From contig JAJEKV010000001.1 in the NCBI GenBank assembly GCA_021234155.1, positions 23,361,189 through 23,425,188 on the forward strand: DNA of 64,000 nt, given 5' to 3'. This stretch comes from Isoetes taiwanensis. Taxonomy: Eukaryota; Streptophyta; Lycopodiopsida; Isoetales; Isoetaceae. A program made the translations under genes and the position numbers. Positions within the stretch are counted from its first letter, which is position 1. The number at the start of each line of letters is the position of its first letter. This document shows positions 36,018-63,456 of the stretch, piece after piece. The notes below the pieces were generated by a model. The model did not search any database, had not been told where the DNA came from, and was given only the letters and a program-made list of their open reading frames with translations.

Positions 36018-36019
36018 AG
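36009..36019. repeat. 11-bp inverted repeat at inversion breakpoint (left)
   Basis: GATGCCCATAG here is the exact reverse complement of CTATGGGCATC at 38068-38078. The pair marks the two ends of the segment whose transposase half is flipped. It contains the start codon of the receptor kinase on the minus strand. Confidence 0.75.
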
Positions 36020-38083: not shown

Positions 38084-38953
38084 CTATTCCTCTCTAAACC
38101 TCATACCTTTTAAAATGTATAGGTTGGGTAGTTTCTCACCTGCAGCATTTACACAAGACAACACTGTCAACCACTCTCTATTCTTTGTGGTGACCTCATT
38201 AACAGTCTTGGCATTCCTCTTACTTAACACCTTCACCCCTGTTTCCTTACCAGCTTGGATGCCTGATTCATCAGCATTCCACACATGATTAGCATCAAAA
38301 CTATAAGTCCTATATGCCAACTCCAACTCATCATAAAAAGCATCTAGGTTAGGCTGGCTAACAGCATAAGCTCTAGCATTGTCAATAATTTGTGCCTTTC
38401 TTAATGCCATGTCTGGGTGACGATTTCTAAAGCACCTCCACCACTTCAATCCTGGGATTCCATCCTTGAATGGAGTCATTCTACCTGCACAAATATCAGC
38501 AACCTTCAGTCTCAACATGGTGACTGTAACTCCAGTACCTTGTGCAACCATTTGAAGGCACCACTCCACCAATTGATCTTCTTCCTGGACTGTCAAAGCT
38601 CTAGGTTTCTTGCCCATCTTGGACCAAGAAATGTGAAATAAATGGTTTCTTAGAGTAGTGTGAGGAATACCATACATCCTAGCAGCCTTTCTCACTGATA
38701 AGAAGCCCTCATCTACATCTAATTTTGCCTTCTCAAGGTTTTCAAGGGACCAACCACCACGTTTCATATTCCTTATAACCTTCTTTCTGGAATTGACATT
38801 GGCAGGTTGAGCAGTAGGGGCATCAGATGGATTATCAGCAAAGATTCTAGTCCTGTTAGCAGCTCTAGGCCCTGATGGCATGTCTCTCAAGATAGTGGCA
38901 ACATCTAGAGATGTCTGATCAAGGACTCTTCCTGATCTAGTAGAGATAGGCAT
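38084..38953 (-). pseudogene. N-terminal half of a pogo/Tigger-like DDE transposase
   Basis: From an ATG at 38953 the minus strand is open for 289 codons. It has a Psq-type helix-turn-helix (about residues 69-105: SLENLEKAKLDVDEGFLSVR then KAARMYGIPHTTLRNHL), a CENP-B-like second DNA-binding helix region (about 120-185, with VEWCLQMVAQGTG and PGLKWWRCFRNRHP) and the first catalytic motif VWNADESGIQ. It ends KGMRFREE at a TAG, where the second half of the protein would be expected. That half lies on the other strand at 36011-37389. The first catalytic Asp is separated from the other two, so no active transposase can be made here. Confidence 0.87.
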
Positions 38954-40326
38954 GATGGGAAGCGTATGCAATGAGGGGATGCAAGGAAGTGTTGCATGGC
39001 TGGTAGAAGCAGGGAGTAATATCTAGCAACTTGGCGCTCATCACAATTCAAAATTCAAACTATGAGCTGCTTTGGAAAGAACTGAAATCTTAATCAATGA
39101 TCAGGATGAAAAGCACACAAGGATTGGTGACATGGATGGTTTGCAGCCCTTGGAACCCAGATAGCACAAATGGTGGAGGAGTAGGCCTGTTTCGGATTGC
39201 TGCTGTGGCATCCCTAAACCCTTGAATTAGGAGGGAAAGACATGCATGACCTGAAAAAGAAAGATCTAGAAGAAGCCCAGATTGATAATCCTAATGGTTG
39301 AAGCATATACCATTATATGCACCTCTCCATGCAGTTGATCTTGACCATACCCAGTGGTTCTTGATCCTGCATAGAAGGTGAGTGGCTGATGTAAAAAACC
39401 TGGCGCCAAAATTGCATGCATAAAAAAAGCAGGTGGAGAAGACCTAATTGTGGTGGCTATAAACAATGAATCAGCCGAGAAACTTGATGAAATAAACTCT
39501 TCCCATGCACCAAAAATAGCTACTTCATGTTCCAGTCTGGGGCGAATCATGTTCCATAAGCGTGGCGTGTCTGCACCATCAACGGTCAGTAAACGCACCA
39601 TATTTAGACGCAGCTGCACCAATCAAAGCTGCCGCCATTTCCATTTCATGGCATTGAGTGACCCATTCAAGGGCACCGGGGTGTCGAGTGAGGGACGCTG
39701 CTGCACCAATTCAGGAACCCTAACGCACCAAAGTAGGGCACAAAAGTTTCTGATTTGTGGCACAATGCGTACTTTTTTTTTGGCACATCGCGACCCGTTG
39801 GGACGGGCGCGTTGCCAAATACGGACGCCCTACTCTACTGAAAATAAGCAGGCAAAACAGGGGAAGATATAAGCCCCTGTTGCAAATGCCAATACAACAA
39901 GTCAATATATGGTAATGGTGAGGCGGATTCGATGGGGTGTGTCAAAGATCCCACTTTAGGATATAAAAGCAGTTCTATTTTTTGGCCACTCGATTGATTC
40001 TTTCAAAGGGCCAGCTGCAATTGTGATACACTCAACAAACGACAGGTCTAGCTTTCAATGCCACCAGCATTGTAACCAGTGCTAACCACCATAGTAATGC
40101 TATGAAAATGGCATAGTAACCACCATAGTAACCAACAGCATCAATGCAGTAGGAGGATTTGACATTTCCTGCCGAACTGTAGGACCGCAAACAGTTCATT
40201 GTTGGAAAAGATCAACAGAATATGAACAGTAAATATGTGCCCAGCGTTGGCACTTACCATGCATAAGTATACTTAGAACATAATTTTTACTTTTAAATAC
40301 ATAAGTGTTAATGTGAATCTATAGCG
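38954..40326. other. Stretch without a recognised gene
   Basis: Overlapping open frames at 39266-39622 (minus) and 39450-39872 (plus) match nothing I know. The first part should be the leader of the pogo-like element. At 40234-40252, GTGCCCAGCGTTGGCAC resembles a shortened copy of the Helitron hairpin seen at 18757. Confidence 0.4.
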
Positions 40327-40331
40327 AAGAT

Positions 40332-40564
40332 TATTAACAGAAATGAATAAAGATTAATCTCCCTGAACAAACACAAATGATATTGTGCTTGTACACGTCA
40401 TCGATCCATGCCAAAGGACATGATGATGTGGAATGTGTCCATTCATGAAGAGATGCAACTCATGCCTCTTCATACACTATGTAAAGCCACAATCCAGGCT
40501 ATTTGGATTAACTCTGATCAATCTCAAATATATACAATTTTCCGCACAATTCTATTTCATAACA
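40332..40564 (+). repeat. 5' LTR of the short LTR element
   Basis: Starts TATTAACAG, ends TTTCATAACA, and is directly followed by the initiator tRNA-Met primer site at 40565-40576. Confidence 0.95.
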
Positions 40565-42193: not shown

Positions 42194-42762
42194 GTTGTTC
42201 AATTCTGCAAAAGTAATAAAAGCCATCCATAATAATTTGGATGCATAAACCCACGAATTAGTGGTCATCTATAAGATGTTAAAACCACATCTGTGTGGTA
42301 CTCCATAGGGCACTAACTCTTCTAGGTCCTTGACGATGAAAACGTTCATTCAAGGCCTAAAAACTCTCCACCTAGATCTTGTTGGAAGTTCCCAAGATCA
42401 AAAGGGGGACAAGTTAGGGAAAGCCATAAGTACATGGCACACCCATTTTATGTGTGAAGAGTAGTTGGAGTTATTCTGGAAGTTTGATCTTGTAAACTTC
42501 CAAAGACTTGAATAGTTCAAGTATTGCAGCTTATGAAGTTAAGGGTAAGTCCACAACCCTAGTGGCATCTAACTTGTATTTTGGGAATAAGCCCATACTT
42601 AATGGCACCCATAGTAATGAAGACCACGTTATGGTGGTAATGTTTATATTGATGAAGCTGCAAGTATACAAAGGAGCAATGAAAACTCCAAGGTAAGAAG
42701 TCACTACAAAATTCTCAAGAAGAAGATCATATGAAGGTTTGTTCATGAAGATTAAGGGGGAG

Positions 42763-42995
42763 TATTAACAGAAATGAATAAAGATTAATCTCCCTGAACA
42801 AACACAAATGATATTGTGCTTGTACACGTCATCGATCCATGCCAAAGGACATGATGATGTGGAATGTGTCCATTCATGAAGAGATGCAACTCATGCCTCT
42901 TCATACACTATGTAAAGCCACAATCCAGGCTATTTGGATTAACTCTGATCAATCTCAAATATATACAATTTTCCGCACAATTCTATTTCATAACA
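42763..42995 (+). repeat. 3' LTR of the short LTR element
   Basis: Same 233-bp sequence as 40332-40564, preceded by the purine tract and followed by the target duplication AAGAT. Confidence 0.95.
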
Positions 42996-44159: not shown

Positions 44160-46160
44160 TTCAAGATCAAGGCATTCTTACTGAGAAAACTACAGGTTAT
44201 TGAAGAACAACATGGTTGAATGTAAATCTATGCAAAAGGAGTAAAGGTTAATATTATCTCAAGTTAACTTATATTTCAATGGTTAACCTATGTGGAAATA
44301 TTAAGGGTTAACATTATTACATGAGAACCTAAGGTCCAATGGTCGTGAAAACAAAGAAGATTGCGGTGAAGTGATCAAATGCCAAGTTTGTTTTCAAACT
44401 TAGAATGGAACGAAACCGACGACTGGTTTCGGTGCCGATTCCTAAAGAATTGGCGCCTACTGATTATAAATTGAAGAAGAATGATCAGATGGAATATCAA
44501 TGCAATGTATTCGATCGGATTCATTGAAGAATGAATGCCTGGGTTATCGAAGAATATTGAATAAAATTTCATTGCATTAGGTGAAAAGTTCCCTTTACAT
44601 AGTCTTTATTTGAATCATATGTTATTTGCATTCAACTGATATTTAAAGACTTGTGATTCAAGTGAAGTTAATAAGATTATAAAGAAGCTAGACATTTATC
44701 TCTAATAATCCTAACATTGGTATCAGAGCTAGGTTGCTTGAAATGTCTAGCAGATTTGGAGCTGGTCTTCTCAGTGGAATTAGGGCTTATGAAGGGGGTC
44801 CTAGTTTTCAAATTTGGAAAAAACAAATGAAAAATGTTCTAGAATGAATTACTGGAAGAAGAAAAATATAGTAATACTAATGGTTCGGCTAGCATTGTTG
44901 CAGGAAGAAGGGAGAGTAGCTCTTCTGCTGAAGCATCTGCAGCAGGAGGTTTGGATGCAACTGCAACAAGTAGTGGTCCTATTAGGGGAGCTGACAGAGC
45001 AAAATTAAAGGAAGCCTATGCAATTTTAACCCGCAAGGTTGGGGCATCAATTTTGCTGAAAGTAAGGGGTAAAACCCCTGGAGAAATATGAAAGTATCTT
45101 CTCAAACATTTTGAGGAAAAAAGTTCGCCTCAAATTGACATTTTGGATAAAGAGTTAAGGAAACTCAGGCTTAGAGAAGAAGATGACTGGAGTAATTTCT
45201 TTTCAAAATTTGATAATATTGTGGCAGATCTTGAAGGAGCAGGAGTTGTAACGACTGACCAACAAAATTTATTGCATGTAGCTAGAGCAGTTTGGAGAGA
45301 ATAAGCAATTAGCTACACTGATCAGGAATGTGGCCAAAACTAGAGAAAATGCTGAAGAAATGATAAGGACAGAGTTTGAGCAGAATAAAATCCTAGTTGA
45401 TGATTATGATGAAAATGTTGTATATGCAGGTCGATCTAAATTCAAAGGCAATAGCTCAAATCAAACAAAAACCAAAGGGAGTATAGGTCCATGCTATCAT
45501 TGCAAGGCTCATGGTCACCTTAAGGCAGAATGTCCTAAGCTTAAAGATGTTGAATGGTTTAATTGTGATGGCAAAGGTCACTTTGCAAACATGTGCTCCA
45601 GCAGTAAGGGAAAGAGAGATAAACCTAATAAAGGAAGAGCAAGACAAGGAAGAGATGGTGGAAGACAAGATGCAGCAGTCAACTTGACTTAAGAAAGTGA
45701 AGAAGAAACTAGTGAAGACGATGAGGATGCTGAGGTAAGTAATAATGCTTTAAATGTTTCAAGTAGGGAATCTAATGATGCAAATGATATGCTGATATTA
45801 GATAGTGAAGTAGAGAAAACAACAACAGGCTCAACCAAGTTACTTAAAGATGGAAAGCAAGAAAAGGAGGTTACATCAAATTAGGAAATGGAGATCTACA
45901 AAAAGTACAATATTCAGGAACTCTTGAATTATTTGATCTTCAAGTAAAAGCAGTAGTCTTAAAGGATGTTTTGTGTGTGCCTCCTACATCAGTGAGAAAT
46001 TTGATATCTGTCAGCCAGCTTGTGGACATGGGATATACTGTCATATTTGACAGAATGAAATGTACTGTTCTACTTGATAATGAAATCAAATTTCTGGGAA
46101 AAAGAGTTGGGAATCCTTTTGGTTTGGAAAACAATCCATTATCAGCCACTGCCACAGACG
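44160..46160 (+). mobile_element. Copia-type retrotransposon relic: LTR end, gag, protease region
   Basis: A primer-binding site TGGTATCAGAGC (44718-44729) follows an LTR end CTAACA. Downstream the plus strand reads as a Copia gag: ILDKELRKLRL and WSNFFSKFDNIVADLE, then two zinc knuckles CYHCKAHGHLKAEC and NCDGKGHFANMC (45491-45596). A protease-to-integrase segment with VLCVPPTSVRNLISVSQL follows near 45965-46030. It is a fossil broken several times and truncated on the right where the opposite-strand Copia LTR begins. The left edge of the LTR was not located. Confidence 0.8.
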
Positions 46161-46844: not shown

Positions 46845-46864
46845 CACAACAAGAAAAGGGTCAT

Positions 46865-47072
46865 TTAGCGACGTCTATAGCGGCGTCGAAGCGGCGCCTA
46901 TCGCGACGTCCCGACGTCGCCGCATTTACGTCGCACATATCGTCGTTGGCGGAACCGCGTCGCATCACGACGCGTCGGCGTCGCCGCTCAGACGTCAGCA
47001 GACGTGACTTCGGGCGGACTTCAGACGTCGCCGACGTCGCATCGGCGTGGCGTCGCGTCTGCGGCGTGGTGT
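46865..47072. repeat. Left subterminal GACGTC/GTCGC-rich domain
   Basis: About 200 bp packed with GACGTC, GTCGC and GGCGTC words in both orientations, very CpG-rich against an A/T-rich surround. The mirror domain is at 63185-63435. An A-rich tract of repeated AAAAAAATT follows (47076-47141). Confidence 0.85.
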
Positions 47073-47309
47073 ACGAAAAAAAAATTAAAAAAAAAATTAA
47101 AAAAAAATTAAAAAAAATTAAAAAAAAAAAAGGGAAAGAATTTTAATAGTTAGTTACAATATCATATACAAGAGGCAAGAGGCGAGTAGTGGCTATCTTT
47201 ACGTGTTCCCTGTTAGGGGAAAACCCGTATAGCCAATTCTATAACAATACGACCAATATTAGACAATGACATTGAAAGTTAACGTGAACTAAGAGTTTAT
47301 AGCACTTAC

Positions 47310-47764
47310 GAATCTATGTAAAAAGCCTTTTCGGCCGCCAGAACCCAAGTGAGACGGAATTCATTTGCTTGAAGTTGCCTTGGCAGTCCGTGAGGCAGAT
47401 GTTTTTTCTTGGAATCCTTTGCACGTTCGAAAGTGATCTGATTGCAAGGAATACAACATGACAAGTTAAATGTCTTATTTCGAATTGAACGAATGGCAAC
47501 AAATAACAAATACCTTGATATCTTCCTTATGGACAGATTAAGTGGTTTAGGGACCTTTGACCAATCGCCTCCCAATTTTTTGGCATTCGACTTCAATTTT
47601 GCAATCACTCTTTGCCTTTTCTATAAATCGATAGATTAACACAAAACAAAAGAATAAAAATAAGACTATGACTAGGTCATGTACCTTCTTTTTCGAAGCA
47701 GCCCCCCATCATCGAAATGAGCCCCTTCCAAATCTGGATTAGTCGGATTAAAAGCTAGAGTTGG
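47310..47764 (-). other. Coding-like exons in the CACTA-like element, copy 1
   Basis: On the minus strand, blocks at 47685-47764 (FNPTNPDLEGAHFDDGG), 47514-47620 (VIAKLKSNAKKLGGDW then PKPLNLSIRKIS) and 47310-47437 (HLPHGLPRQLQANEFRLTW then LAAEKAFYID) are each bounded by plausible AG and GT borders. They may belong to a gene of the element or a captured gene. The phases of the last two do not join cleanly in the frame that looks most protein-like. I do not recognise the family. The same blocks recur in copy 2 at 56723-57177. Confidence 0.3.
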
Positions 47765-47827
47765 CTAACATACGCTTTAGGGTTATAAGCTAGATTTGGC
47801 CACCTCTACCTAAGAATTACAAGAAAA

Positions 47828-48113
47828 GTCGACTTGGACCCGAACACCTGGTCGTCTCCACTCGTAGTGGAGCCTACCGGGGCCGTGAACAAGCCACTAC
47901 AATTTTATTTTAAACCTAAAAAATAACAAGTGGCTGTGGACTTGAACCCGGGTACGTGGCCCTCTCCACTCTAGGTGGAGCCGGCCGTGCCCTTGAACAA
48001 GCCACTCCTTAACCTAGGAAAAATATATGATCGTAGTGAAGTGGACTTCGAACCCGGGTACATGGTCCTCCCCACTCTAGGTGGAGCCGACCCGTGCCCT
48101 TGAACAAGCCACT
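47828..48113 (-). repeat. Three tRNA-like repeats in tandem, copy 1
   Basis: Three units (about 47828-47898, 47930-48005 and 48039-48113) each read, on the minus strand, from GTGGCTTGTTCA through a strong CTCCAC/GTGGAG hairpin to a B-box-like GGGTTCAAGTCC and AGCCAC or a variant. The ends GTGGCT and AGCCAC can pair like an acceptor stem. They look like a tRNA-derived sequence amplified locally. The T-stem is imperfect, so they are not functional tRNA genes. Confidence 0.5.
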
Positions 48114-48199
48114 CCATCAATTTTTTTTAACCTGCTTAAAATTATAAAAATAAAATGCAAGCGCGATCAACTTACCAAAAGAAGGACGTGTGTAACAAG

Positions 48200-48590
48200 A
48201 TCCTGACGGGTCCAAATCGAAATAGAAAGCAACAAAGAGTTAGAAGAATAAGAACAACGGAAAAAAAAGATCGAAGAAGAAACAAAAAAAAAAAAAAAAA
48301 AAAAAGATGAAGAAATAGTAAAACAAGAAAGAAAAAAAATGAATGAATCAAAGAAGAAGAGAAGGGTGGGAGAAAGAAGAGAAGGGGAAAGAGGAGAAAA
48401 AAGAAATTAGGGGAAGAAAGAGAAGAATGGAAGAAATAAGAGAATGAAATGGAAGAAGATAGAAGAATGGAAGAATGGAAGAGTGAAATAAGGGAAGAAT
48501 CAAGAAAGAAAAATGAGGAAAGAAGGAAAAGAAGAAGAATGAAGAAACAAGAAGAAGAAAAAGAAGGAAAGAGATAGAAAAAAAAATTTG
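48200..48590 (+). repeat. Long purine tract, copy 1
   Basis: About 390 bp almost free of C and poor in T, built of GAAGAA, GGAAGAAT and A-run words, with an A-run near 48285-48304. It is the type of sequence that expands by slippage and can form triplex DNA. Copy 2 is at about 57950-58320. Confidence 0.85.
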
Positions 48591-48764
48591 AAATCTACAC
48601 TAAATCATTCAATCCAAAAAACCATTCAATCCAAAAACCATGATCTACTAACCTTAAAAAGAGTGCTTGCAAGTCGCTCAAGGTCGAGCGCAAGATCGCC
48701 CAAAATAGTCGATAGAAGAAGCCTAGGAATGGTCCCTAAAAGACGGCCAGCGGATCAGAAAAAA

Positions 48765-48930
48765 CACCGGCGTCGCATGCGACGTCGCGGACGTCACATC
48801 TTGACGTAATTTTGAAATCGTATATCACGATTTCAAATCAGATATATCGATTTCAAAATCGTATATCTGGTTTAACGTCGCATGCGACGATGTCCGCTGA
48901 CGATATTTTGTTATAGCGGCGTCTAACACT
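48765..48930. repeat. Inner GACGTCGC patch with cgtatatacg palindromes, copy 1
   Basis: GGCGTCGCATGCGACGTCGC, then several AAATCGTATAT..GATTT inverted words, then CGTCGCATGCGACGATG and TTTTGTTATAGCGGCGTC. It resembles the subterminal domains but lies 1.9 kb inside the element, and may be a former end or a duplicated binding domain. Confidence 0.75.
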
Positions 48931-49110
48931 TTTTAATTTTTGGTGCCTTTTTTCATCCGATGGTCATGAAAGTTTGTCCTTATGCTAATTTGGACATTCC
49001 CGAGCCATGTATGCGATCAAAATCGCATTCCTGGGATTTAACCAATGTTCTATTGCTACTACTTACGAATGTTTGAGCCCTGTGGGTGGCATGTTTGAGC
49101 CCGGGGTGGC

Positions 49111-52100
49111 GGTTTGATAAGTTCTCCGGACGGATGTTGGATTTTTTTTGGCCTTATCGAACGAGGGCCCTTGAACGAAGGATTCAATGGTGGGATAGGG
49201 GAACCGAGATCCCGGAGTGTGGTCTTTAGCGTCACGGCCCCGGGAGCGCTGCCAGGAAAGGCTACCTTGGGAAACTTTTTGGGGCTCGCCTCTTGGGGTT
49301 CGGACTCTCCCCTCTAATGAGATGGCCTTGCAAGGTCCCGGCCTTGTTTGACTTGGGCAAGTGTGCCCGGCTTTCAACAACAACGCTGCCCGGACCGTTC
49401 TAATGCAAACACTTTGATCTAAACCTTGTCCGGAATTTTTGAAAACTGGCCTGTATGTTGGCGATGACTTAGGAAGCCTGGGTCGGCTGACACAAAAATC
49501 AGAATTTAATTCCGTACTATGCATTAATTACGAATTTATGAATGTCTTGCTACACGCAAAAGTTGCCCTTTACTTCTAACCGCCACAACGGGAGGAGTAC
49601 AGATCCAAACTCCATTCCGTCCGGTTCCCTTGCTTTCGTTCTCAATCGCATCTTATTGGCCAAGTCCCAAGTGCAAAGGACCAAAACTTCGGCACCCAAA
49701 ATGCAAACCACCTTAGAACACGGCAACTCATAGGGTTTACGTTTGGAGGCTCTATCCTTGTCGATTCGACTAGGACCTTGCGCCGTCTTGGCGTAGGGGG
49801 GTGTTGGCCTTGAGCACGGACCCTAAAACCACTTGGAAGCAGCTTGCCCCAAAAGTCCTCTCCGAAGGCCCCGGCGACGGACGGGCAACTTTCCCTCTCC
49901 GGGAATCGTGATTCGCTCGCCAATGGACTCGGAACATCGACATTGCCACGGGGACCAAGTTTCCTGGCCAAAAGACCACCCCTTCTCGAGGGTAGCGTCA
50001 AACTATCTCATGTCCAACACACTTTCGTGAGTCAATTGGCCTAGGAGGTGGTCATTCGAATCTCTTTAACGTGGGGCGTAGTGTTTCTTTCTTTTGCAAA
50101 ACTGACCGTGCAACTTGGTCTCTAGGGTAATTTCGGCCTCCCGGACGATGTGGCGAAGTCGAATCGCCATTCCGGAGCCTCCGCAATGTCCGAACGACAA
50201 AACACTTTGGTTTCTACACGGTCGACCGCAGAACGCTTCGCGGTTTGATAAGTTCTCCCGTGCGGATGTTGGATTTTGTTGGACCTTATCGAGCCAGGGC
50301 CCTTGAACGAAGGATTCAACGGTCGGATAGGGGAACCGAGATCCGGGAGTGTGGTCTTTAGCGTACGGCCCCCCGGGGGAGCGCTGCCAGGAAAGGCTAC
50401 CTCGGGAAACTTTTTGGGGCTCGCCTCTTGGGGTTCGGACTCTCCCCTCTAATGAGGCGGCCTTGCAAGGTCCTGGCCTTGTTTGACTTGGGCAAGTGTG
50501 CCAGCTCGGCTGCCCAACAACAGGCTGCCCGGACCGTTCTAATGCAAACACTTTGATCTAAACCTTGTCCGGAAATTTTGAAAACTGGCCTGAATGTTGA
50601 CGATGACTTAGGAAGCCTGCTGACAAAAAATCAGAATTTAATTTCGTACTATGCATTAATTACAAATTTATGAATGTCTTGCTACTGCAAAAGCTGCCCT
50701 TTACTTCTAACTGCCACAACGGGAGGAGTACAGATCCAAACTCCATTCCGTCAGTTCCCCTTGCTTCGCGCTCTCAACTGCATCTTATCGGCCAAGTTCC
50801 AAGTGCAAAGGACCAAAACTCGGCACCCAAAATGCAAACCCTGCTAGAACCTGGCAACTCATAAGGTTTACGTTTCGGAGGCTCTATCCTTGTCAGATTC
50901 GACTAGGGCCTTGCGCCGTGTCTTGACGTAGAGGGGGGGGTGTTGACGCCAGAGCACGGACCCTAAAACCACACAGGAAGCTTGCCCCAAAAGTCCTCTC
51001 CGAAGGCCACGGCGACGGACGGGCAACTTCCCTCTCCTAATCGTGATTCGGCTCTGCCAATGGACTCGGAACATCGACATTGCCCTGGGGACCAAGTTTC
51101 CTGGCCAAAAGACCACCCCTTCTCGAGGTAGCGTCAAACTATCTCATGTCCAACACACTCGTAGTCAATTGGCCTAGGAGGTGGGCATTAATCTTGCGTA
51201 GGGCGTAAGTGTTTCTTTCTTTTGCAAAACCGGCCGCAACTTGGTCTCTAGGGTAATTTCGGCCTCTCGGACGATGTGGCGAAGTCGAATCGCCATTCCG
51301 GAGCCTCCGCAATGTCCGAACGACAAAACACTTTGGTTTCTACACGGTCGACCGCAGAACGCTTCGCGGTTTGATAAGTTCTCCCGGACGGATGTTGGAT
51401 TTTGTTGGACCTTATCGAGCCAGGGCCCTTGAACGAAGGATTCAATGGTCGGATAGGGGAACCGGATCCCCCGGAGTGTGGTCTTTAGCGTCGGACCCCA
51501 GTGGCAGCCGCCGAGGAAAGGCTACCTCGAAACTTTTTGGGGCTCGCCTCTTGGGGTTCTGGACTCTCCCCTCTAATGAGACGGCCTTGCAAGGTCCTGG
51601 CCTTGTTTGACTTGGGCAAGTGTGCCCGGCTCGGCTGCCCAACAACGAAGTTGCCGAACCGTTCTAATGCAAACACTTTGATCTAAACCTTGTCCGGAAA
51701 TTTTGAAAACTGGCCTGTATGTTGGCGATGACTTAGGAAGCCTGTGACAAAAAAAATCAGAATTTAATTCCGTACTATGCATTAATTACGAATTTATGAA
51801 TGTCTTGCTCTTGCAAAAGGCGCCCTTTACTTCTAACCGCCACAACGGGAGGAGTACAGATCCAAACTCCATTCCGCTGGTTCCCCTTGCAGCTCTCAAC
51901 TGCATCTTATCGGCCAAGTTCCAAGTGCAAAGGACCAAAACTTCGGCACCCAAAACGCAAACCCCTGCTAGAACCCGGCAACTCATAAGGTTTACGTTTG
52001 AGGCTCTATCCTTGTCGATTCGACTAGGACCTTGCGCCGCGTCTTGACGTGAGGGGGGTGTTGACGCCGAGCACGGACCCTAAAACCACACAAGCGGCTT

Positions 52101-55100
52101 GCCCCAAAAGTCCTCTCCGGCCCACGGCGACGGACGGGCAACTTCCCCTCTCCCGGATCGTGATTCGCTCGCCAATGGACTCCGGAACATCGACATTGCC
52201 ACGGGGACCAAGTTTCCTGGCCAAAAGACCACCCCTTCTCGAGGTAGCGTCAAACTATCTCATGTCCAACACACACTCGTAGTCAATTGGCCTAGGAGGT
52301 GGGCATTTAATCTTTAAAGCGTAGGGCGTAAGTGTTTCTTTCTTTTGCAAAACTGACCGTGCAACTTGGTCTCTAGGGTAATTTCGGCCTCTCGGACGAT
52401 GTGGCGAAGTCGAATCGCCATTCCGGAGCCTCCGCAATGTCCGAACGACAAAACACTTTGGTTTCTACACGGTCGACCGCAGAACGCTTCGCGGTTTGAT
52501 AAGTTCTCCCGGACGGATGTTGGATTTTGTTGGACCTTATCGAGCCAGGGCCCTTGAACGAAGGATTCAACGGTCGGATAGGGGAACCGAGATCCGGGAG
52601 TGTGGTCTTTAGCGTACGGCCCCCCGGGGGAGCGCTGCTAGGAAAGGCTACCTCGGGAAACTTTTTGGGGCTCGCCTCTTGGGGTTCGGACTCTCCCCTC
52701 TAATGAGGCGGCCTTGCAAGGTCCTGGCCTTGTTTGACTTGGGCAAGTGTGCCACCGGCTCGCTGCCAACAACAGTTGCCCGACCGTTCTAATGCAAACA
52801 CTTTGATCTAAACCTTGTCCGAAATTTTGAAAACTGCCTGTATGTTGGCGATGACTTAGGAAGCCCACGACAAAAATCAGAATTTAATTCCGTTACTACT
52901 AATTTATGAATGTCTTGCTACCGCAAAGCCGCCCTTTACTTCTAACCGCCACAACGGAGGAGTACAGATCCAAACTCCATTCCGTCGGGTTCCCCTTGCT
53001 TCAAGGCTCAACTGCATCTTATCAGCCAAGTTCCAAGTGCAAAGGACCAAAACTTCGGCACCCAAAACGCAAACCCCAGAACCCGCAACTCATAAGGTTT
53101 ACGCTTTGGAGGCTCTATCCTTGTCGATTCGACTAGGACCTTGCGTGCCGTCTTGGCGTGGGGGGGTGTTGGCCTTGAGCACGGACCCTAAAACCACACC
53201 TGGAAGCGGCTTGCCCCAAAAGTCCTCTCCCGAAGGCCACGGCGACGGACGGGCAACTTCCCTCTCCTAATCGTGATTCGCTCGCCAATGGACTCGGAAC
53301 ATCGACATTGCCCCGGGGACCAAGTTTCCTGGCCAAAAGACCACCCCTTCTCGAGGTAGCGTCAAACTATCTCATGTCCAACACACTCGTAGTCAATTGG
53401 CCTAGGAGGTGGGCGTCCGAATCTTTAACGTGGGGCGTAAGTGTTTCTTTCTTTTGCAAAACTGACCGTGCAACTTGGTCTCTAGGGTAATTTCGTCCTC
53501 CCGGACGATGTGGCGAAGTCGAATCGCCATTCCGGAGCCTCCGCAATGTCCGAACGACAAAACACTTTGGTTTCTACACGGTCGACCGCAGAACGCTTCG
53601 CGGTTTGATAAGTTCTCCCGGACGGATGTTGGATTTTGTTGGACCTTATCGAGCCAGGGCCCTTGAACGAAGGATTCAACGGTCGGATAGGGGAACCGAG
53701 ATCCGGGAGTGTGGTCTTTAGCGTACGGCCCCCAGGGGAGCGCTGCCAGGAAAGGCTGCCTCGGGAAACTTTTTGGGGCTCGCCTCTTGGGGTCCGGACT
53801 CTCCCCTCTAATGAGGTGGCCTTGCAAGGTCCTGGCCTTGTTTGACTTGGGCAAGTGTGCCCATTTCGCTGCCCAACAACAGTCACTGGGACCGTTCTAA
53901 TGCAAAACACTTTGATCTAAACCTTGTCCAGAAATTTTGAAAACTAGCCTGTATGTTGGCGATGACTTAGAAGCCTGCTGACAAAAAATCAGAATTTAAT
54001 TCCGTACTATGCATTAATTACGAATTTATGAATGTCTTGCTACTGCAAAAGCTGCCCTTTACTTCTAACTGCCACAACGGGAGGAGTACAGATCCAAACT
54101 CCATTCCGTCAGTTCCCCTTGCTTCGTTCTCAATCGCATCTTATCAACCAAGTCCCAAGTGCAAAGGACCAAAACTTCGGCACCCAAAACGCAAACCCCC
54201 TTTAGAACCGGCAACTCATAGGGTTTACGTTTGGAGGCTCTATCCTTGTCGATTCGACTAGGACCTTGCCGCCGGTCTTGGCGTAGGGGGAGGTGTTGAC
54301 GCCTTTGCACGGACCCTAAAACCATCCGGAAGCGACTTGCCCCAAAAGTCCTCTCCCGAAGGCCCCGGGCGACGAACGGGCAACTTCCCCTCTCGGAATC
54401 GTGATTCGCTCTGCCAATGGACTCGGCGCCGACATTGCCCCGGAGACCAAGTTTCATGGCGAAGACCACCCCTTCTCGAGGCGTCAAACTATCTCATGTC
54501 CAACACACTTTCGTAGTCAATTGGCCTAGGAGGTGGTCGTCGAATCTTTAGGAACGTGGGCGTAAGTGTTTCTTTCTTTTGCAAAAATGACCGCAACTTG
54601 GTCTCTAGGGTAATTTCGCCTCCCTGACGATGTGGCAAAGTCGAATCGCCATTCCGGAGCCTCCGCACGTGTCCGAACGACAAAACACTTTGGTTTCTAC
54701 AAGGTCGACCGCGGGGCGCTTCATGGTTTGATAAGTTCTCCCGGGGCGGATGTTGGATTTTTTTGACCTTATCGAGGCAGGCCCTTGAACGAAGGATTCA
54801 ACGGTTGGGATAGGGGACCGAGATCCGGGAGTGTGGTCTTTAGCGTCACGGCCCGTGGGAGCCGCCCAGAAAGGCTGCCTCGGGGAAACTTTTTGGGCTC
54901 GCCTCTTGGGGTCCTGACTCTCCCCTCTAATGAGGTGGCCTTGCAAGGTCCTGGCCTTGTTTGACTTGGGCAAAGTGTGCCCATTTCGGCTGCCCAACAA
55001 CAGTTTGCCCGGGACCGTTCTAATGCAAAACACTTTGATCTAAACCTTGTCCAAAAATTTTGAAAACTGGCTCAGAGTTGGCGATGACTTAGGAAGCCTG

Positions 55101-56300
55101 GCCGACAAAAATAAAAATTTAATTCCGTACTATGTATTAATTACGAATTTATGAATGTCTTGCTATTGCAAAAGTCGCCCTTTACTTCTAACCGCCACAA
55201 CGGAGGAGTACAGATCCAAACTCCATTCCGTCGGTTCCCCTTGCTTCGCATTCTCAAGCGCATCTTATCGGCCAAGTCCCAAGTGCAAAAGACCAAAACT
55301 TCGGCACCCAAAAACGCAAACCCCCGCTAGAACACCCAGCAACTCATAGGGTTTACGTTTGAGGCTCTATCCTTGTCGATTAGACTAGGACCTTTAAGTA
55401 GATGTCTTGGCGTAGAGTGGTGGTGTTGACGCCGAAGCACGGACCCTAAAACCACACAGGCGGCTTGCCCCAAAAGTCCTCTCCCCGGCCCTCGGCGGCG
55501 GACCGGGCAACTTCCCTCTCTCCGAGAATCGTGATTGGCTCTCCCAATGGACTTCGGAATGTCGACATTGTCACGGGGACCAAGTTTCGCGGGCGGAAGA
55601 CCACCCCCTTCTCGAGGAAGCGTCAAACTATCTCATGTCCAACACACTTTCGTAGTCAATTGGCCTAGGAGGTGGTCAAGGAATCTTTACCGCGTACGAG
55701 GGGTAAGTGTTTCTTTCTTTTGCAAACTGACCCGTGCAACTTGGTCTCTAGGATAATTTCGGCCTCCTCGACGATGTGGCTAAGTCGAATCGCCATTCCC
55801 GAACCCTCCGCCGTCCGAACGACAAAACACTTTGGTTTCTACGATTGGCCGCAGGGCCCAGCGGTTTGATAAGTTCTCCCAGACGGATGTTGGATTTTTT
55901 TGGACCTTATCGAGCCAGGGCCCTTGAACGAAGGATTCAACGGTCGGATAGGGGAACCGACATCCGGGAGTGTGGTCTTTAGCGTCGGACCCTCCTGTGG
56001 GACCGAGGAAAGGTCGCCTCGAAAACTTTTTGTGGCTCGCCTCTTGGGGTTCGGACTCTCCCCTAATGAGGCGACCTTGCAAGGTCCTGGCCTTGTTTGA
56101 CTTGGGCAAAGTGTGCCCTTCGGCTCCAACAACAAAAGCCCGGGGACCGTACTAATGCAAACACTTTGATCTAAACCTTGTCTGGAAATTTTGAAAACTG
56201 GCATGTACGTTGGCGATGACTTAGGAAGCCTGCTGACAAAAAATCAGAATTTAATTCCTTACTATGCATTAATTATGAATTTATGAATGTCTTGCTACTG
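49111..56300 (+). repeat. Array 1 of a 1.13-kb tandem repeat (6 full copies plus a part)
   Basis: Taking GGTTTGATAAGTTCTCC as phase zero, copies start at 49111, 50242, 51368, 52493, 53602, 54725 and 55863, so spacings are 1109-1138 bp. Each is G/C-richer than the surroundings. Each includes landmarks such as CCTTGAACGAAGGATTCAA, GGGGCTCGCCTCTTGGGG, GAATTTATGAATGTCTTGC and TCATGTCCAACACAC. The last copy breaks off near 56300, and a diverged piece of the same repeat follows (56301-56470). Open frames of up to about 160 codons occur on both strands and recur in each copy, but I recognise no protein. Confidence 0.95.
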
Positions 56301-56722
56301 CCCAACAACATGCTGCCTAGACCGTTCCAATGCTACCTATTTGATCAGAACTTTATCCGGAAATTCTAAAAATTTGCCTGTATGCTGGGGATGACCTAGG
56401 AAGCCAACTGGCAAAAAATCAGAATTTAATTCCATACCCTGCATTAATTACGAATTTATGAAGCATGAATGCAAAAGAACGCATAACTAAAAAATTCTGC
56501 ATCGAAAAAAGGTGGAATTTTGACAAGCGGTGCAACGTGCCGGTACGGACATGAGAAAAATATTTCACTAGGATATGCAGTGTTGGTGCACGAGGCGAGT
56601 AGTGGCTATCTTTACGTGTTCCCTGTTAGGGGAAAACCCGTATAGCCAATTCTATAACAATACGACCAATATTAGACAATGACATTGAAAGTTAACGTGA
56701 ACTAAGAGTTTATAGCACTTAC

Positions 56723-57177
56723 GAATCTATGTAAAAAGCCTTTTCGGCCGCCAGAACCCAAGTGAGACGGAATTCATTTGCTTGAAGTTGCCTTGGCAGT
56801 CCGTGAGGCAGATGTTTTTTCTTGGAATCCTTTGCACGTTCGAAAGTGATCTGATTGCAAGGAATACAACATGACAAGTTAAATGTCTTATTTCGAATTG
56901 AACGAATGGCAACAAATAACAAATACCTTGATATCTTCCTTATGGACCATTAAGTGGTTTAGGGACCTTTGACCAATCGCCCTCCCAATTTTTGGCATTC
57001 GACTTCAATTTTGCAATCACTCTTTGCCTTTTCTATAAATCGATAGATTAACACAAAACAAAAGAATAAAAATAAGACTATGACTAGGTCATGTACCTTC
57101 TTTTTTTTGCGGCCCCCATCATCGAAATGAGCCCCTTCCAAATCTGGATTAGTCGGATTAAAAGCTAGAGTTGGCTA
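56723..57177 (-). other. Coding-like exons in the CACTA-like element, copy 2
   Basis: Duplicate of 47310-47764 with a few changes, for example a shorter C run and a longer T run near 57100-57115 that alter the DDGG..RK part. The divergence does not look constrained for protein, which argues against a working gene in this copy. Confidence 0.3.
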
Positions 57178-57239
57178 ACATACGCTTTAGGGTTATAAGC
57201 TAGATTTGGCCACCTCTACCTAAGAATTACAAGAAAAGT

Positions 57240-57849
57240 CGACTTGGACCCGAACACCTGGTCGTCTCCACTCGTAGTGGAGCCTACCGTGCCCTTGAAC
57301 AAGCCACTACAATTTTATTTTAAACCTAAAAAATAACAAGTGGCTGTGGACTTGAACCCGGGTACGTGGCCCTCTCCACTCTAGGTGGAGCCGGCCGTGC
57401 CCTTGAACAAGCCACTCCTTAACCTAGGAAAAATATATGAGGGTAAAAGCATGTTAGGGTGTCCCTTAAAAAGTATTATTTAGTGACCAAAAAAGTACCT
57501 AAAAAGGTATCCAGGACTGGGTACTGGGTACCTGTGTAATATCTCAATAAAAGGTACATTCTAGAACTTTTATATGTATTTTGGTCTCCGGTAGCATTAT
57601 CTTTATCTTAGCTTTGAATATTAATGCGTCCGTGACTTTTATTTTGGACTTTTGTACTAGTTTTAATGAAAATAAAAATGAGAAAGTACCCAGTTCTGAA
57701 GTACCTAGTGTATGTACTTTTGCAGGTTCCAAAAGTGGTACACCCTAACATGCTTTTACCCATGATCGTAGTGAAGTGGACTTCGAACCCGGGTACATGG
57801 TCCTCCCCACTCTAGGTGGAGCCGACCCGTGCCCTTGAACAAGCCACTC
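57240..57849 (-). repeat. Three tRNA-like repeats, copy 2, split by a MITE
   Basis: The same three units as at 47828-48113 (here about 57240-57311, 57343-57415 and 57775-57849). The MITE at 57441-57761 separates the second from the third. Confidence 0.5.
57441..57761. mobile_element. MITE, 321 bp, with perfect 22-bp inverted ends
   Basis: The ends GGGTAAAAGCATGTTAGGGT (57441 onward) and its reverse complement (to 57761) match over 22 bp. ATGA stands on both sides (57437-57440 and 57762-57765). The corresponding place in duplication unit 1 (48027-48030) has a single ATGA and no insert, an empty site that proves the boundaries. The superfamily is unclear: a 4-bp, or 3-bp TGA, duplication with GGG ends could be Harbinger-related. 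Confidence 0.9.
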
Positions 57850-57949
57850 CATCAATTTTTTTTAACCTGCTTAAAATTATAAAAATAAAATGCAAGCGCG
57901 ATCAACTTACCAAAAGAAGGACGTGTGTAACAAGATCCTGACGGGTCCA

Positions 57950-58320
57950 AATCGAAATAGAAAGCAACAAAGAGTTAGAAGAATAAGAACAACGGAAAAA
58001 AAGATCGAAGAAGAAAAAAAAAAAAAAAAAAAAAAAAGATGAAGAAATAGTAAAACAAGAAAGAAAAAAAATGAATGAATCAAAGAAGAAGAGAAGGGTG
58101 GGAGAAAGAAGAGAAGGGGAAAGAGGAGAAAAAAGAAATTAGGGGAAGAAAGAGAAGAATGGAAGAAATAAGAGAATGAAATGGAAGAAGATAGAAGAAT
58201 GGAAGAATGGAAGAGTGAAATAAGGGAAGAATCGAAGAAAGAAATGAGGAAAGAAGGAAAAAGAAGAAGAATGAAGAAACAAGAAGAAGAAAAAGAAGGA
58301 AAGAGATAGAAAAAAATTTG
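57950..58320 (+). repeat. Long purine tract, copy 2
   Basis: Duplicate of the GAAGAA-rich tract at 48200-48590, differing mainly in A-run lengths. Confidence 0.85.
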
Positions 58321-58496
58321 AAATCTACACTAAATCATTCAATCCAAAAAACCATTCAATCCAAAAACCATGATCTACTAACCTTAAAAAGAGTGCTTGC
58401 AAGTCGTTCAAGGTCGTAGCGCCGAAGATCGCCCAAAATAGTCGATAGAAGAAGCCTAGGAATGGTCCCGGAAAAGACGGCCCGCGGGACTGTAAA

Positions 58497-58670
58497 AAAC
58501 ACACGGCGTCGCATGCGACGTCGCGACGTAATTTTGAAATCGTATATACGATTTCGAAATCGTATATACGATTTCAAAATCGTATATACGATTTCAAAAT
58601 CGATATACTGCTTTTAACGTCGCGATGCGACGGTCCACGACGATATTTTGTTATAGCGACGTCTAACACT
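58497..58670. repeat. Inner GACGTCGC patch with cgtatatacg palindromes, copy 2
   Basis: The same patch as 48765-48930, but here the palindromic word AAATCGTATATACGATTT is repeated cleanly about three times (58536-58592), each copy being its own reverse complement. Copy 1 has degenerate versions. Confidence 0.8.
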
Positions 58671-58849
58671 TTTTAATTTTTTTGGTGCCTTTTTTTCATC
58701 TGATGGTCATGAAAGTTTGTCCTTATGCTAATTTGGACATTCCCGAGCCATATATGCAGTCAAAATCGCATTCCGGATTTAACCAATGTTCTATTGCTAC
58801 TACTTACGAATGTTTGAGCCTGTGGTGGCATGTTTGAGCCTGGGGTGGC

Positions 58850-61800
58850 GGTTTGATAAGTTCTCCCGGACGGATGTTGGATTTTTTTGGCCCTTATCGA
58901 ACGAGGGCCCTTGAACGAAGGATTCAATGGTCGGATAGGGGAACCGAGATCCGGGAGTGTGGTCTTTAGCGTACGGCCCCCCGGGGGAGCGCTGCCAGGA
59001 AAGGCTACCTTGGGAAACTTTTTGGGGCTCGCCTCTTGGGGTTCGGACTCTCCCCTCTAATGAGACGGCCTTGCAAGGTCCTGGCCTTGTTTGACTTGGG
59101 CAAGTGTGCCTGGCTTCCCAACCCAACAACAGGCTGCCCGGACCGTTCTAATGCAAACACTTTGATCTAAACCTTGTCCGGAAATTTTGAAAACTGGCCT
59201 GTATGTTGGCGATGACTTAGGAAGCCTGCTGACAAAAAATCAGAATTTAATTCCGTACTATGCATTAATTACGAATTTATGAATGTCTTGCTACTGCAAA
59301 AGCTGCCCTTTACTTCTAACTGCCACAACGGGAGGAGTACAGATCCAAACTCCATTCCGTCGGTTCCCCTTGCTTCGCGTTCTCAAGCATCTTATCAACC
59401 AAGTCCCAAGTGCAAAGGACCAAAACTCGGCACCCAAAACGCAAACCCTGCTAGAACCTGGCAACTCATAGGGTTTACGTTTCGGAGGCTCTATCCTTGT
59501 CAGATTCGACTAGGACCTTGCGCCGTGTCTTGACGTAGAGGGGAGGTGTTGACGCCAGAGCACGGACCCTAAAAACCATCCGGAAGCAGCTTGCCCCAAA
59601 AGTCCTCTCCCGAAGGCCACCCGGCGAGCGGGCAACTTCCCCCTCCCGGAATCGTGATTCGGCTCTGCCAATGGACTCGAAACGTCGACATTGCCCTGGA
59701 GACCAAGTTTCATGGCCAGAAGACCACCCCTTCTCGAGGAAGCGTCAAACTATCTCATGTCCAACACACTCGTAGTCAATTGGCCTAGGAGGTGGCTGTC
59801 GAATACTGCAACGTAGGGCGTAAGTGTTTCTTTCTTTTGCAAAACTGACCGTGCAACTTGGTCTCTAGGGTAATTTCGGCCTCCCGGACGATGTGGCGAA
59901 GTCGAATCGCCATTCCGGAGCCTCCGCAATGTCCGAACGACAAAACACTTTGGTTTCTACACGGTCGACCGCAGAACGCTTCGCGGTTTGATAAGTTCTC
60001 CCGGACGGATGTTGGATTTTGTTGGACCTTATCGAGCCAGGGCCCTTGAACGAAGGATTCAACGGTCGGATAGGGGAACCGAGATCCGGGAGTGTGGTCT
60101 TTAGCGTCGGCCCCGTGAGCCCGAAAGGCTACCTCGAAACTTTTGGGGCTCGCCTCTTGGGGTTTGGACTCTCCCCTCTAATGAGGCGGCCTTGCAAGGT
60201 CCTGGCCTTGTTTGACTTGGGCAAGTGTGCCAGCTCGGCTGCCCAACAACAGGCTGCCCGGACCGTTCTAATGCAAACACTTTGATCTAAACCTTGTCCG
60301 GAAATTTTGAAAACTGGCCTGTATGTTGGCGATGACTTAGGAAGCCTGCTGACAAAAAATCAGAATTTAATTTCGTACTATGCATTAATTACAAATTTAT
60401 GAATGTCTTGCTACTGCAAAAGCTGCCCTTTACTTCTAACTGCCACAACGGGAGGAGTACAGATCCAAACTCCATTCCGTCAGTTCCCCTTGCTTCGCGC
60501 TCTCAACTGCATCTTATCGGCCAAGTTCCAAGTGCAAAGGACCAAAACTCGGCACCCAAAACGCAAACCCTGCTAGAACCTGGCAACTCATAAGGTTTAC
60601 GTTTCGGAGGCTCTATCCTTGTCAGATTCGACTAGGACCTTGCGCCGCGGTGTCTTGGCGTGAGGGGGGTGTTGACGCCAGAGCACGGACCCTAAAAACC
60701 ACCTGGAAGCAGCTTGCCCCAAAAGTCCTCTCCCGAAGGCCCTGGCGACGGACGGGCAACTTCCCCTCTCCGGAATCGTGATTCGGCTCTGCCAATGGAC
60801 TCGGAACATCGACATTGCCCTGGGGACCAAGTTTCCTGGCCAAAAGACCACCCCTTCTCGAGGTAGCGTCAAACTATCTCATGTCCAACACACTCGTAGT
60901 CAATTGGCCTAGGAGGTGGTAAGGCCGAATCTTGCAACGTGGGGCGTAAGTGTTTCTTTCTTTTGCAAAACCGACCGTGCAACTTAGTCTCTAGGGTAAT
61001 TTCGCCTCTCTGACGATGTGGCGGTCGAATCGCCATTCCGGAGCCTCCGCAATGTCCGAACGACAAAACACTTTGGTTTCTACACGGTCGACCGCAGAAC
61101 GCTTCGCGGTTTGATAAGTTCTCCCGGACGGATGTTGGATTTTGTTGGACCTTATCGAGCCAGGGCCCTTGAACGAAGGATTCAATGGTCGGATAGGGGA
61201 ACCGAGATCCGGGAGTGTGGTCTTTAGCGTACGGCCCCCCGGGGGAGCGCTGCCAGGAAAGGCTACCTCGAGAAACTTTTTGGGGCTCGCCTCTTGGGGT
61301 TCGGACTTTCCCCTCTAATGAGACGGCCTTGCAAGGTCCTGGCCTTGTTTGACTTGGGCAAGTGTGCCAGCTTGGCTGCCCAACAACAGGTTGCCCGAAC
61401 CGTTCTAATGCAAACACTTTGATCTAAACCTTGTCCGGAAATTTTGAAAACTGGCCTGTATGTTGGCGATGACTTAGGAAGCCTGCTGACAAAAAATCAG
61501 AATTTAATTCCGTACTATGCATTAATTACGAATTTATGAATGTCTTGCTACTGCAAAAGCTGCCCTTTACTTCTAACTGCCACAACGGGAGGAGTACAGA
61601 TCCAAACTCCATTCCGTCAGTTCCCCTTGCTTCGCGTTCTCAACTGCATCTTATCAACCAAGTCCCAAGTGCAAAGGACCAAAACTCGGCACCCAAAACG
61701 CAAACCCTGCTAGAACCTGGCAACTCATAGGGTTTACGCCGTTTGAGGCTCTATCCTTGTCGATTCGACTAGGACCTTGCGCGCGTGTCTTGACGTAGGG

Positions 61801-62698
61801 GAGGTGTTGGACGCCGAGCCCGGACCCTAAAAACCATCCGGAAGCAGCTTGCCCCAAAAGTCCTCTCCCGAAGGCCCTGGCGACGAACGGGCAACTTCCC
61901 CTCTCCGGAATCGTGATTCGGCTCTGCCAATGGACTCGAAACGTCGACATTGCCCTGGAGACCAAGTTTCATGGCCAGAAGACCACCCCTTCTCGAGGAA
62001 GCGTCAAACTATCTCATGTCCAACACACTCGTAGTCAATTGGCCTAGGAGGTGGCTGTCGAATACTGCAACGTAGGGCGTAAGTGTTTCTTTCTTTTGCA
62101 AAAATGACCGTGCAACTTGGTCTCTAGGATAATTTCGGCCTCCCGGACGATGTGGCAAAGTCGAATCGCCATTCCGGAGCCTCCGCAATGTCTGAACGAC
62201 AAAACACTTTGGTTTCTACAAGGTCGACCGCAGGACGCTTCGCGGTTTGATAAGTTCTCCCAGACGGATGTTGGATTTTTTTGGACCTTATCGAGCCAGG
62301 GCCCTTGAACGAAGGATTCAACGGTCGGATAGGGGAACCGACATCCGGGAGTGTGGTCTTTAGCGTCTGACCCCTCCTCGGAGCGCCGCCAGAAAGGCTG
62401 CCTCGGGAAACTTTTTGTGGCTCGCCTCTTGGGGTTCGGACTCTCCCCTCTAATGAGGCGGCCTTGCAAGGTCCTGGCCTTGTTTGACTTGGGCAAGTGT
62501 GCCCGCTTCGGTACCGCCCAACAACAGTCACCTTTACCGCATTAAATGCAAACACTTTGATCTAAACCTTGTCCGAAATTTTGAAAACTGGCATGTACGT
62601 TGGCGATGACTTAGGAAGCCTGCTGACAAAAAATCAGAATTTAATTCCTTACTATGCATTAATTATGAATTTATGAATGTCTTGCTACTGCCCAACAA
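58850..62698 (+). repeat. Array 2 of the 1.13-kb tandem repeat (3 full copies plus a part)
   Basis: Copies start at 58850, 59985, 61108 and 62244. The longest open frame in either array is on the minus strand at 60869-61417 (182 codons). Array 2 shares private variants with array 1: the second copies both have AATTTCGTACTATG and ACAAATTTATG, and the last partial copies both have GGCATGTACGTTGG. The arrays therefore descend from one array that was duplicated and later changed in copy number. Confidence 0.95.
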
Positions 62699-63184
62699 CA
62701 TGCTGCCTAGACCGTTCCAATGCTACCTATTTGATCAGAACTTTATCCGGAAATTCTAAAAATTTGCCTGTATGCTGGGGATGACCTAGGAAGCCAACTG
62801 GCAAAAAATCAGAATTTAATTCCATACCCTGCATTAATTACGAATTTATGAAGCATGAATGCAAAAGAACGCATAACTAAAAAATTCTGCATCGAAAAAA
62901 GGTGGAATTTTGACAAGCGGTGCAACGTGCCGGTACGGACATGAGAAAAATATTTCACTAGGATATGCAGTGTTGGTGCACGATGAAATAGCTCCGAGTC
63001 TTCCAGAGCTCACATGCTGCCACAAAAGTTCTTTTACGAAGGCCCTGGCGATGGACGAGCAATTTTCCCTCTCCAAAACCATGATTTGGCTCTTCCAATG
63101 GACTCAGAATATCGACATTACCCTGGGGACCAACTTTCGTGGCCAGAAGACCACCCTTGTTCTCCAAAAAGAACAAAGTACACT

Positions 63185-63435
63185 AGACGTCCAGCAGACG
63201 TCCCGCGCGACGTCACGTCGCACGCGACGTCACGTCGCACAAAAGTGACGCACGCGATGCGACGTGGTCGTAGACGTGGCGCACCTGGCGTGACAGATCT
63301 GCCACGTCACGGTGTCAGACGTCGCACCACACGTCGCATGCGACGTGTCTGCGACGTGACGTCGCATTGACGTCGCATGGTGACGTTATTTGCGACGTCA
63401 CGTCGCACAGACGTCGCAAGCCCACGTCGCTAAAT
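63185..63435. repeat. Right subterminal GACGTC/GTCGC-rich domain
   Basis: Dense GACGTC, CGTCGCA and GCGACGT words in both orientations up to the right terminal inverted repeat, mirroring 46865-47072. Confidence 0.85.
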
Positions 63436-63456
63436 GTCCATTCTCTTGTTGTGTAA

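Follow-up and report, generated by a model that had tools for sequence, protein, structure and literature searches.

A probable non-autonomous CACTA-like transposon of Isoetes taiwanensis with a duplicated interior and two arrays of a kilobase repeat

The stretch of DNA analysed here, referred to as the window, comprises 64,000 nucleotides of the Isoetes taiwanensis genome (GenBank assembly GCA_021234155.1, contig JAJEKV010000001.1, positions 23,361,189 to 23,425,188 of the forward strand). Towards its right-hand end lies a repetitive element of 16,609 bp (46845-63453), which has inverted terminal repeats, interrupts a Ty1/copia-like region, and contains two arrays of a long tandem repeat (Table 1). 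To the left of the element, a frame at 45282-45692 on the plus strand encodes a gag-like fragment with two zinc knuckles (zf-CCHC). Farther to the left, an uninterrupted frame of 814 aa (33576-36020, minus strand) contains B_lectin and protein kinase domains and corresponds to a lectin receptor kinase.

Table 1. Coordinates of the element, its internal parts and its insertion site, given as positions in the window.
Feature	Start	End	Strand	Remarks
Left flank: Ty1/copia-like RNase H region (interrupted), C-terminal part	46540	46841	-	frame read
Left target-site copy, 3 bp	46842	46844		CAA; copia-like frame rejoined once one copy is removed
Left terminal inverted repeat	46845	46874	+	CACAACAAGAAAAGGGTCATTTAGCGACGT; 27/30 match to right end
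Left CpG-rich subterminal domain	46863	47076		CpG observed/expected 2.01; ACGTCGC 4, GCGACGT 2
A-rich tract between left subterminal domain and unit A	47076	47131		TRF
Unit A	47181	56593	+	9,413 bp, shared GA counted at right end
Short direct repeats in unit A	47828	48115		about 108 bp; GGTTCAAGTCC-like box
Internal CGACG island, unit A	48765	48910		CpG observed/expected 2.71; resembles subterminal domain
Array A	49109	55860	+	six full monomers, 1109-1136 bp
Truncated last monomer, array A	55861	56297	+	
Copy in unit A of right-end unique segment	56298	56593	+	includes founder-like piece 56298-56462
Unit B	56594	62983	+	6,390 bp; A/B junction
MITE, unit B only	57441	57761		321 bp; 22-bp perfect terminal inverted repeat GGGTAAAAGCATGTTAGGGTGT
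Internal CGACG island, unit B	58495	58640		near-perfect 70-bp palindrome 58531-58600
Array B	58848	62241	+	three full monomers
Truncated last monomer, array B	62242	62690	+	end point as in array A
Founder-like diverged monomer pieces	62688	63156	+	62688-62852 and 63018-63156
Right CpG-rich subterminal domain	63185	63440		CpG observed/expected 1.83; ACGTCGC 9, GCGACGT 6
Right terminal inverted repeat	63424	63453	-	minus strand reads CACAACAAGAGAATGGACATTTAGCGACGT
Right target-site copy, 3 bp	63454	63456		TAA
Right flank: Ty1/copia-like RNase H region (interrupted), N-terminal part	63457	63640	-	frame read

The limits of the element had been proposed in a preliminary description of this DNA and are exact, and the two kinds of terminal structure that it reported, namely 30-bp inverted ends and CpG-rich subterminal domains, are confirmed. 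A scan of 46-64 kb reveals no inverted pair of 30-mers other than the terminal repeats that has at least 27 of 30 matching bases and arms separated by more than 12 kb. The terminal pair is recovered in two overlapping registers, whereas five mononucleotide shuffles yield no such pair. The CpG observed/expected ratios of the subterminal domains (Table 1) compare with 0.52 for positions 1-46800 of the window. Both domains contain the 7-mer ACGTCGC/GCGACGT in both orientations, whereas its two forms occur once and not at all in 46.8 kb outside the element. The ends also share direct and inverted matches.

Both flanks belong to what we take to be one RNase H region of a Ty1/copia-like element. When the element and one 3-bp target copy are excised in silico, the flanks read GGDVDIRRSRSGYAYLSGKIAIAWKSKKQ in a single frame. 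This rejoined frame places ten residues between the tyrosine of GY and the W, presumably the usual spacing in RNase H of copia elements, and retention of all six target bases gives eleven. The two 3-bp flanks, CAA and TAA, differ by one mismatch. The interrupted region is itself decayed and contains stops as well as a frame change. When the rejoined peptide was searched against PDB sequences, no match was returned. The rejoined copia-like frame is the best evidence that the whole unit inserted as a single transposon.

The canonical termini of CACTA elements read 5'-CACTA, and a CACTG variant also exists. Both ends of the present element start with CACAA; because the fourth base is A rather than T, the literal CACTA motif is absent at both. 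An identical change on the two sides suggests a characteristic of the family and not a product of decay. The extended terminal sequence nonetheless resembles known CACTA ends. Published ends of Chenopodium CACTA elements, taken from the text of PMC8978399, were compared with the two element ends against backgrounds of 2000 shuffles and the 724 CAC-starting 28-mers of the window. The C. iljinii end is the best match, with no shuffle (0/2000) and no window 28-mer (0/724) scoring equally well for either element end. The ends of C. pamiricum and C. sosnowskyi give as clear a result for the left end (0/2000 and 0/724 for each species) and a weaker one for the right end (5/2000 and 18/724 for C. pamiricum, 12/2000 and 17/724 for C. 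sosnowskyi). The C. vulvaria end is intermediate, with 2/2000 shuffles for each element end and 5/724 and 7/724 window 28-mers. The C. quinoa end matches poorly, since 73/2000 and 20/2000 shuffles and 49/724 and 23/724 window 28-mers score as well.

Four terminal strings were also sought in print. One of them, CACTACAAGAAAA, appears as a CACTA end in radish in the matching text of PMC7210773; the same literature text search found it in one human cancer paper as well, and found CACAACAAGAGAA in three papers on Elymus. The pattern of the element ends is absent from the viral contigs searched and a looser pattern is absent from the prokaryote contigs, as expected for plant-type DNA.

The element is overlapped by 35 stop-to-stop frames with a length of 100 aa or more. 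All of them lack a Pfam family at cut-off, and no Transposase_21 (TNP2) gene is recognised among them. The element is thus non-autonomous as far as these frames reveal. Absence of Transposase_21 is expected for a non-autonomous element and does not disqualify it as a CACTA element.

Other superfamilies also use 3-bp target sites, PIF/Harbinger being one whose target preference is TAA or TTA and whose PIF ends begin with G. The right flank of the present element does read TAA, and the 3-bp duplications made by PIF/Harbinger are described in PMC2213677. Assignment to such a superfamily is nevertheless very improbable, given that the ends begin CACAACAAGA and resemble CACTA ends, and that subterminal repeats built of short units, present in both orientations, are described in PMC8195511 as a pattern of CACTA elements. 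We retain the label CACTA-like on the basis of the Chenopodium-like ends, the subterminal repeats and the 3-bp target. The label had been applied in the preliminary description, and it stands for the resemblance of the ends, the subterminal repeats and a non-autonomous structure without recognisable transposase; it fails for the terminal bases themselves, which are CACAA and not CACTA. We consider it probable that the locus holds a non-autonomous CACTA (En/Spm)-like transposon that entered a Ty1/copia-like retroelement and duplicated a 3-bp target, and that the interior and arrays of the transposon have the history proposed below.

Between its two fixed ends the element consists largely of two head-to-tail units, A and B, which agree with the 9.4-kb and 6.4-kb halves initially described. 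Counted inwards from the breakpoints, the first 356 bp on the left side and the first 409 bp on the right side are identical in the two units; farther in, the mismatches between them are clustered. The copied right-end segment includes a stretch in which all 165 positions agree (56298-56462 versus 62688-62852). This head-to-tail arrangement supports the earlier suggestion that the element grew by internal duplication. At the A/B junction only 2 bp are common to both parents (GA, 56592-56593), and because the overlap is so short the duplication was probably not begun by unequal exchange between repeats. Instead, it looks like the product of end-joining or of a template slip during gap repair, rather than of homologous exchange. 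An overlap of 2 bp is common by chance and is no proof of gap repair, a route that is not proven because end-joining would also leave such an overlap.

Several smaller features distinguish parts of the units. Unit B alone contains 325 bp that consist of the MITE (321 bp) and one of its 4-bp target copies (ATGA, at 57437-57440 and 57762-57765). The CGACG islands inside the two units may be what is left of a related end that was nested there; the island in unit A has a 20-bp match of 90% to the left subterminal domain. For the direct repeats of about 108 bp in unit A, a tRNA or SINE origin was considered and rejected, as ARAGORN finds none and no Rfam match falls there. The 14 matches that Rfam returns lie at 58506-58610 or 63208-63418, and none of them attains the gathering score.

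A head-to-tail duplication could also be created in assembly, by misjoining two haplotypes or two copies of the element. The duplication is seen in one assembly of apparently limited base accuracy, and clumped differences between near-identical copies, including a pair of LTRs serving as control, suggest local consensus errors. In the left unique part shared by A and B, the variance/mean of differences is 5.9 and 50 of 62 bins are empty; six comparisons within the element give values of 2.8-8.5. The control LTR pair (4269-5770 and 13839-15337) gives 4.0 and a further repeat pair 5.2; another LTR pair is short and has just one difference, so that it says nothing about clumping. Local consensus error is the likely cause of the clumped divergence, and short conversion tracts could have caused it too. 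Assembly misjoins, for their part, usually occur in long overlaps, whereas the junction here shares only 2 bp. Moreover, the units differ by a MITE with target copies and by three monomers. An assembly artefact is accordingly improbable, and we treat the duplication as a genuine part of the element.

The control pair is itself a set of 1.5-kb direct repeats with 94% identity, probably the LTRs of a retroelement of about 11 kb, and its clumped differences point to consensus errors throughout the window. Because clumping points to such errors, ages based on divergence are unsafe. Dating of the duplication by the divergence of A and B was abandoned, in view of the identical edges, the clumping of mismatches beside indels and the similar clumping in the LTR control. 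The CpG observed/expected ratio is high in the ends and also in the arrays (0.93 and 0.89), which suggests youth independently of divergence.

Each unit carries one array of the 1.13-kb repeat noted at the outset. The full monomers measure 1109-1136 bp (mean 1,127 bp); unit A has six of them and unit B has three, and each array includes one truncated monomer. The raw difference in length between A and B is 3,023 bp, or 2.7 monomers. Once the MITE is taken into account, A exceeds B by 3,348 bp, which is 2.97 monomers of mean length and agrees with the difference of about three monomers that had been claimed. The start and end points of the array are common to both units, which places the formation of the array before the duplication.

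Comparison of individual monomers reveals exchange after duplication as a plausible source of their present variation. In the 428 gap-distant columns of 1188, monomers other than A6 are 96.7-99.8% identical and pairs that include A6 are 93.9-95.1% identical; in the remaining 760 columns, monomer identity is 77.9-94.6%. Sixteen informative clean columns form a mosaic in which B1 and B3 carry one variant set and A2 and B2 another. In gap-distant columns, A2 and B2 are 99.1% identical, and B1 and B3 99.8%. The mosaic supports later unequal exchange or gene conversion between monomers. Unequal exchange, which had been proposed together with internal duplication, thus fits the difference of about three monomers and the variant mosaic; it does not fit the duplication itself, where the junction overlap is only GA.

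The origin of the array is suggested by sequences that remain beside it. Two diverged pieces of monomer separate the array from the right subterminal domain and keep the order and strand that they have within the monomer. The first (62688-62852) matches positions 272-436 of the monomer consensus at 85%, and the second (63018-63156) matches positions 744-881 at 83%. The first piece is 81.1-85.3% identical to the eleven full and partial monomers. The second is 80.5-85.3% identical to the nine full monomers, the two partial monomers having been left out with matches of 20 bases or fewer. Neither piece is closest to the neighbouring monomers. A decayed monomer at the edge of the array should be nearest the last monomers, and since these pieces are not, they look like the founder from which the monomer arose. 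With age, a copy at the edge could have lost its closeness to its neighbours as well.

Alternatively, a satellite array already present elsewhere in the genome may have been captured by the element rather than grown from its own interior. Such capture has been proposed in PMC8978399 for the closest precedent, a 171-bp satellite carried by CACTA elements of Chenopodium quinoa. The monomer frames contain no transposase or other domain, so that nothing in their coding content marks the monomer as derived from the element. Three Pfam matches far below cut-off (E 0.1, 0.17, 0.077) were set aside as chance, and with them a coding origin of the monomer. The resident diverged pieces, about equally far from all full monomers, fit a founder rather than capture. 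We consider capture possible though unlikely, and favour growth of the array from the element's own interior.

Taken together, these features are consistent with a history of four steps. First, a stretch of the element's own right-hand interior would have been amplified to a tandem array of 1.13-kb monomers. Second, the interior would have been duplicated as a unit, both ends being left untouched; the simplest cause would be slipped or template-switched repair of the gap that the excision of a sister copy left behind. Slippage or template switching in gap repair has been invoked for defective copies of Galileo (discussed in PMC4168063), and for the mechanism of sequence capture Belyayev and colleagues refer to Rubin and Levy (PMC8978399). 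Third, unequal exchange or conversion may have made the two arrays differ in number, in the end by about three monomers. Fourth, the MITE would have entered unit B. To move, the element would depend on a transposase provided in trans, which would recognise the ends that begin with CACAA and the ACGTCGC motifs of the subterminal domains; the arrays would then travel as passive cargo. The preliminary description supposed that the element could seed a genome-wide satellite; in a BLAST search with the monomer consensus, the other 46.8 kb of the window (1-46844) contain no match at E 1e-3. A broader proposal, namely that a CACAA-ended CACTA lineage repeatedly converts its own right interior to kilobase satellite, duplicates array-bearing interiors, spreads the arrays by transposition and later gives rise to free satellites, is rather doubtful at present.

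CACTA elements that carry satellite arrays have already been published (described in PMC8978399), and a review table in PMC9659126 lists transposon-derived satellites that include ENSAT1, from an En/Spm-like element of Arabidopsis. The element described here resembles Jozin of Chenopodium and the 16,523-bp CACTA element of C. quinoa, as they are characterised in the sections of PMC8978399 used for comparison, in its similar 28-bp ends (C. iljinii being best), its short subterminal repeats in both orientations, the long array near the 3' end and, for the C. quinoa element, a nearly equal total length (16,609 bp here). By the same account, the Chenopodium elements have CACTA termini and a transposase, whereas here the termini are CACAA and no transposase is recognisable. 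The C. quinoa monomer of 171 bp is repeated 32.5 times in one 5.55-kb array; the monomer here measures 1.13 kb, and two arrays derive from a duplicated interior with founder-like pieces inside.

Other systems share single aspects of this organisation. The Chenopodium satellite CficCl-61-40, which the text of PMC7320549 traces to the tnp2 domain of Jozin, likewise has monomers from a CACTA interior. There, a transposase-domain fragment of about 40 bp starts the arrays, in contrast to the 1.13-kb stretch without a recognised coding domain that here still lies inside the element. LsC1 of lettuce, a non-autonomous CACTA element of En/Spm type, also has imperfect 28-nt ends and no transposase; its account in PMC8195511 gives a 3-bp target duplication and calls subterminal repeats typical of the superfamily. 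LsC1 is only 3.9 kb long, however, and the relevant part of that account mentions neither a duplicated interior nor an array. The Cg_HINE Helentrons of oyster are non-autonomous DNA transposons with satellite-like central arrays that they carry through the genome, according to PMC7492417, but they belong to the Helentron superfamily. Galileo of Drosophila willistoni, as outlined in PMC4168063, similarly grows by direct tandem repeats and internal duplication, yet it is a member of the P superfamily with repeats of about 140 bp inside its inverted repeats.

Among the titles and abstract beginnings of the open-licence literature, we recognised neither a CACAA-ended element nor two arrays from a duplicated interior. 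New at this locus are the interruption of a copia-like frame, the CACAA ends, the 2-bp junction, an array that predates the duplication, the founder-like piece and the MITE confined to unit B. The element exemplifies one known route by which mobile DNA may come to carry satellite-like repeats. Taken as a single locus, it is an example of a known phenomenon that appears to keep three stages side by side: a founder-like segment, an array made from it, and another array that was duplicated together with its flanks. Should copies elsewhere in the genome prove to have the founder without the array, it could be read directly within the family in which direction transposons and satellites are linked.

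The window also holds other mobile DNA. Fragments of a pogo/Tc5-like transposase lie in opposite orientations at 35962-36816 (plus strand) and 38084-39022 (minus strand), with DDE_1 as well as HTH_psq and HTH_Tnp_Tc5 domains. Direct repeats of 236 bp with 99.6% identity (40329-40564 and 42760-42995), spaced 2.4 kb apart, possibly delimit a young short retroelement.
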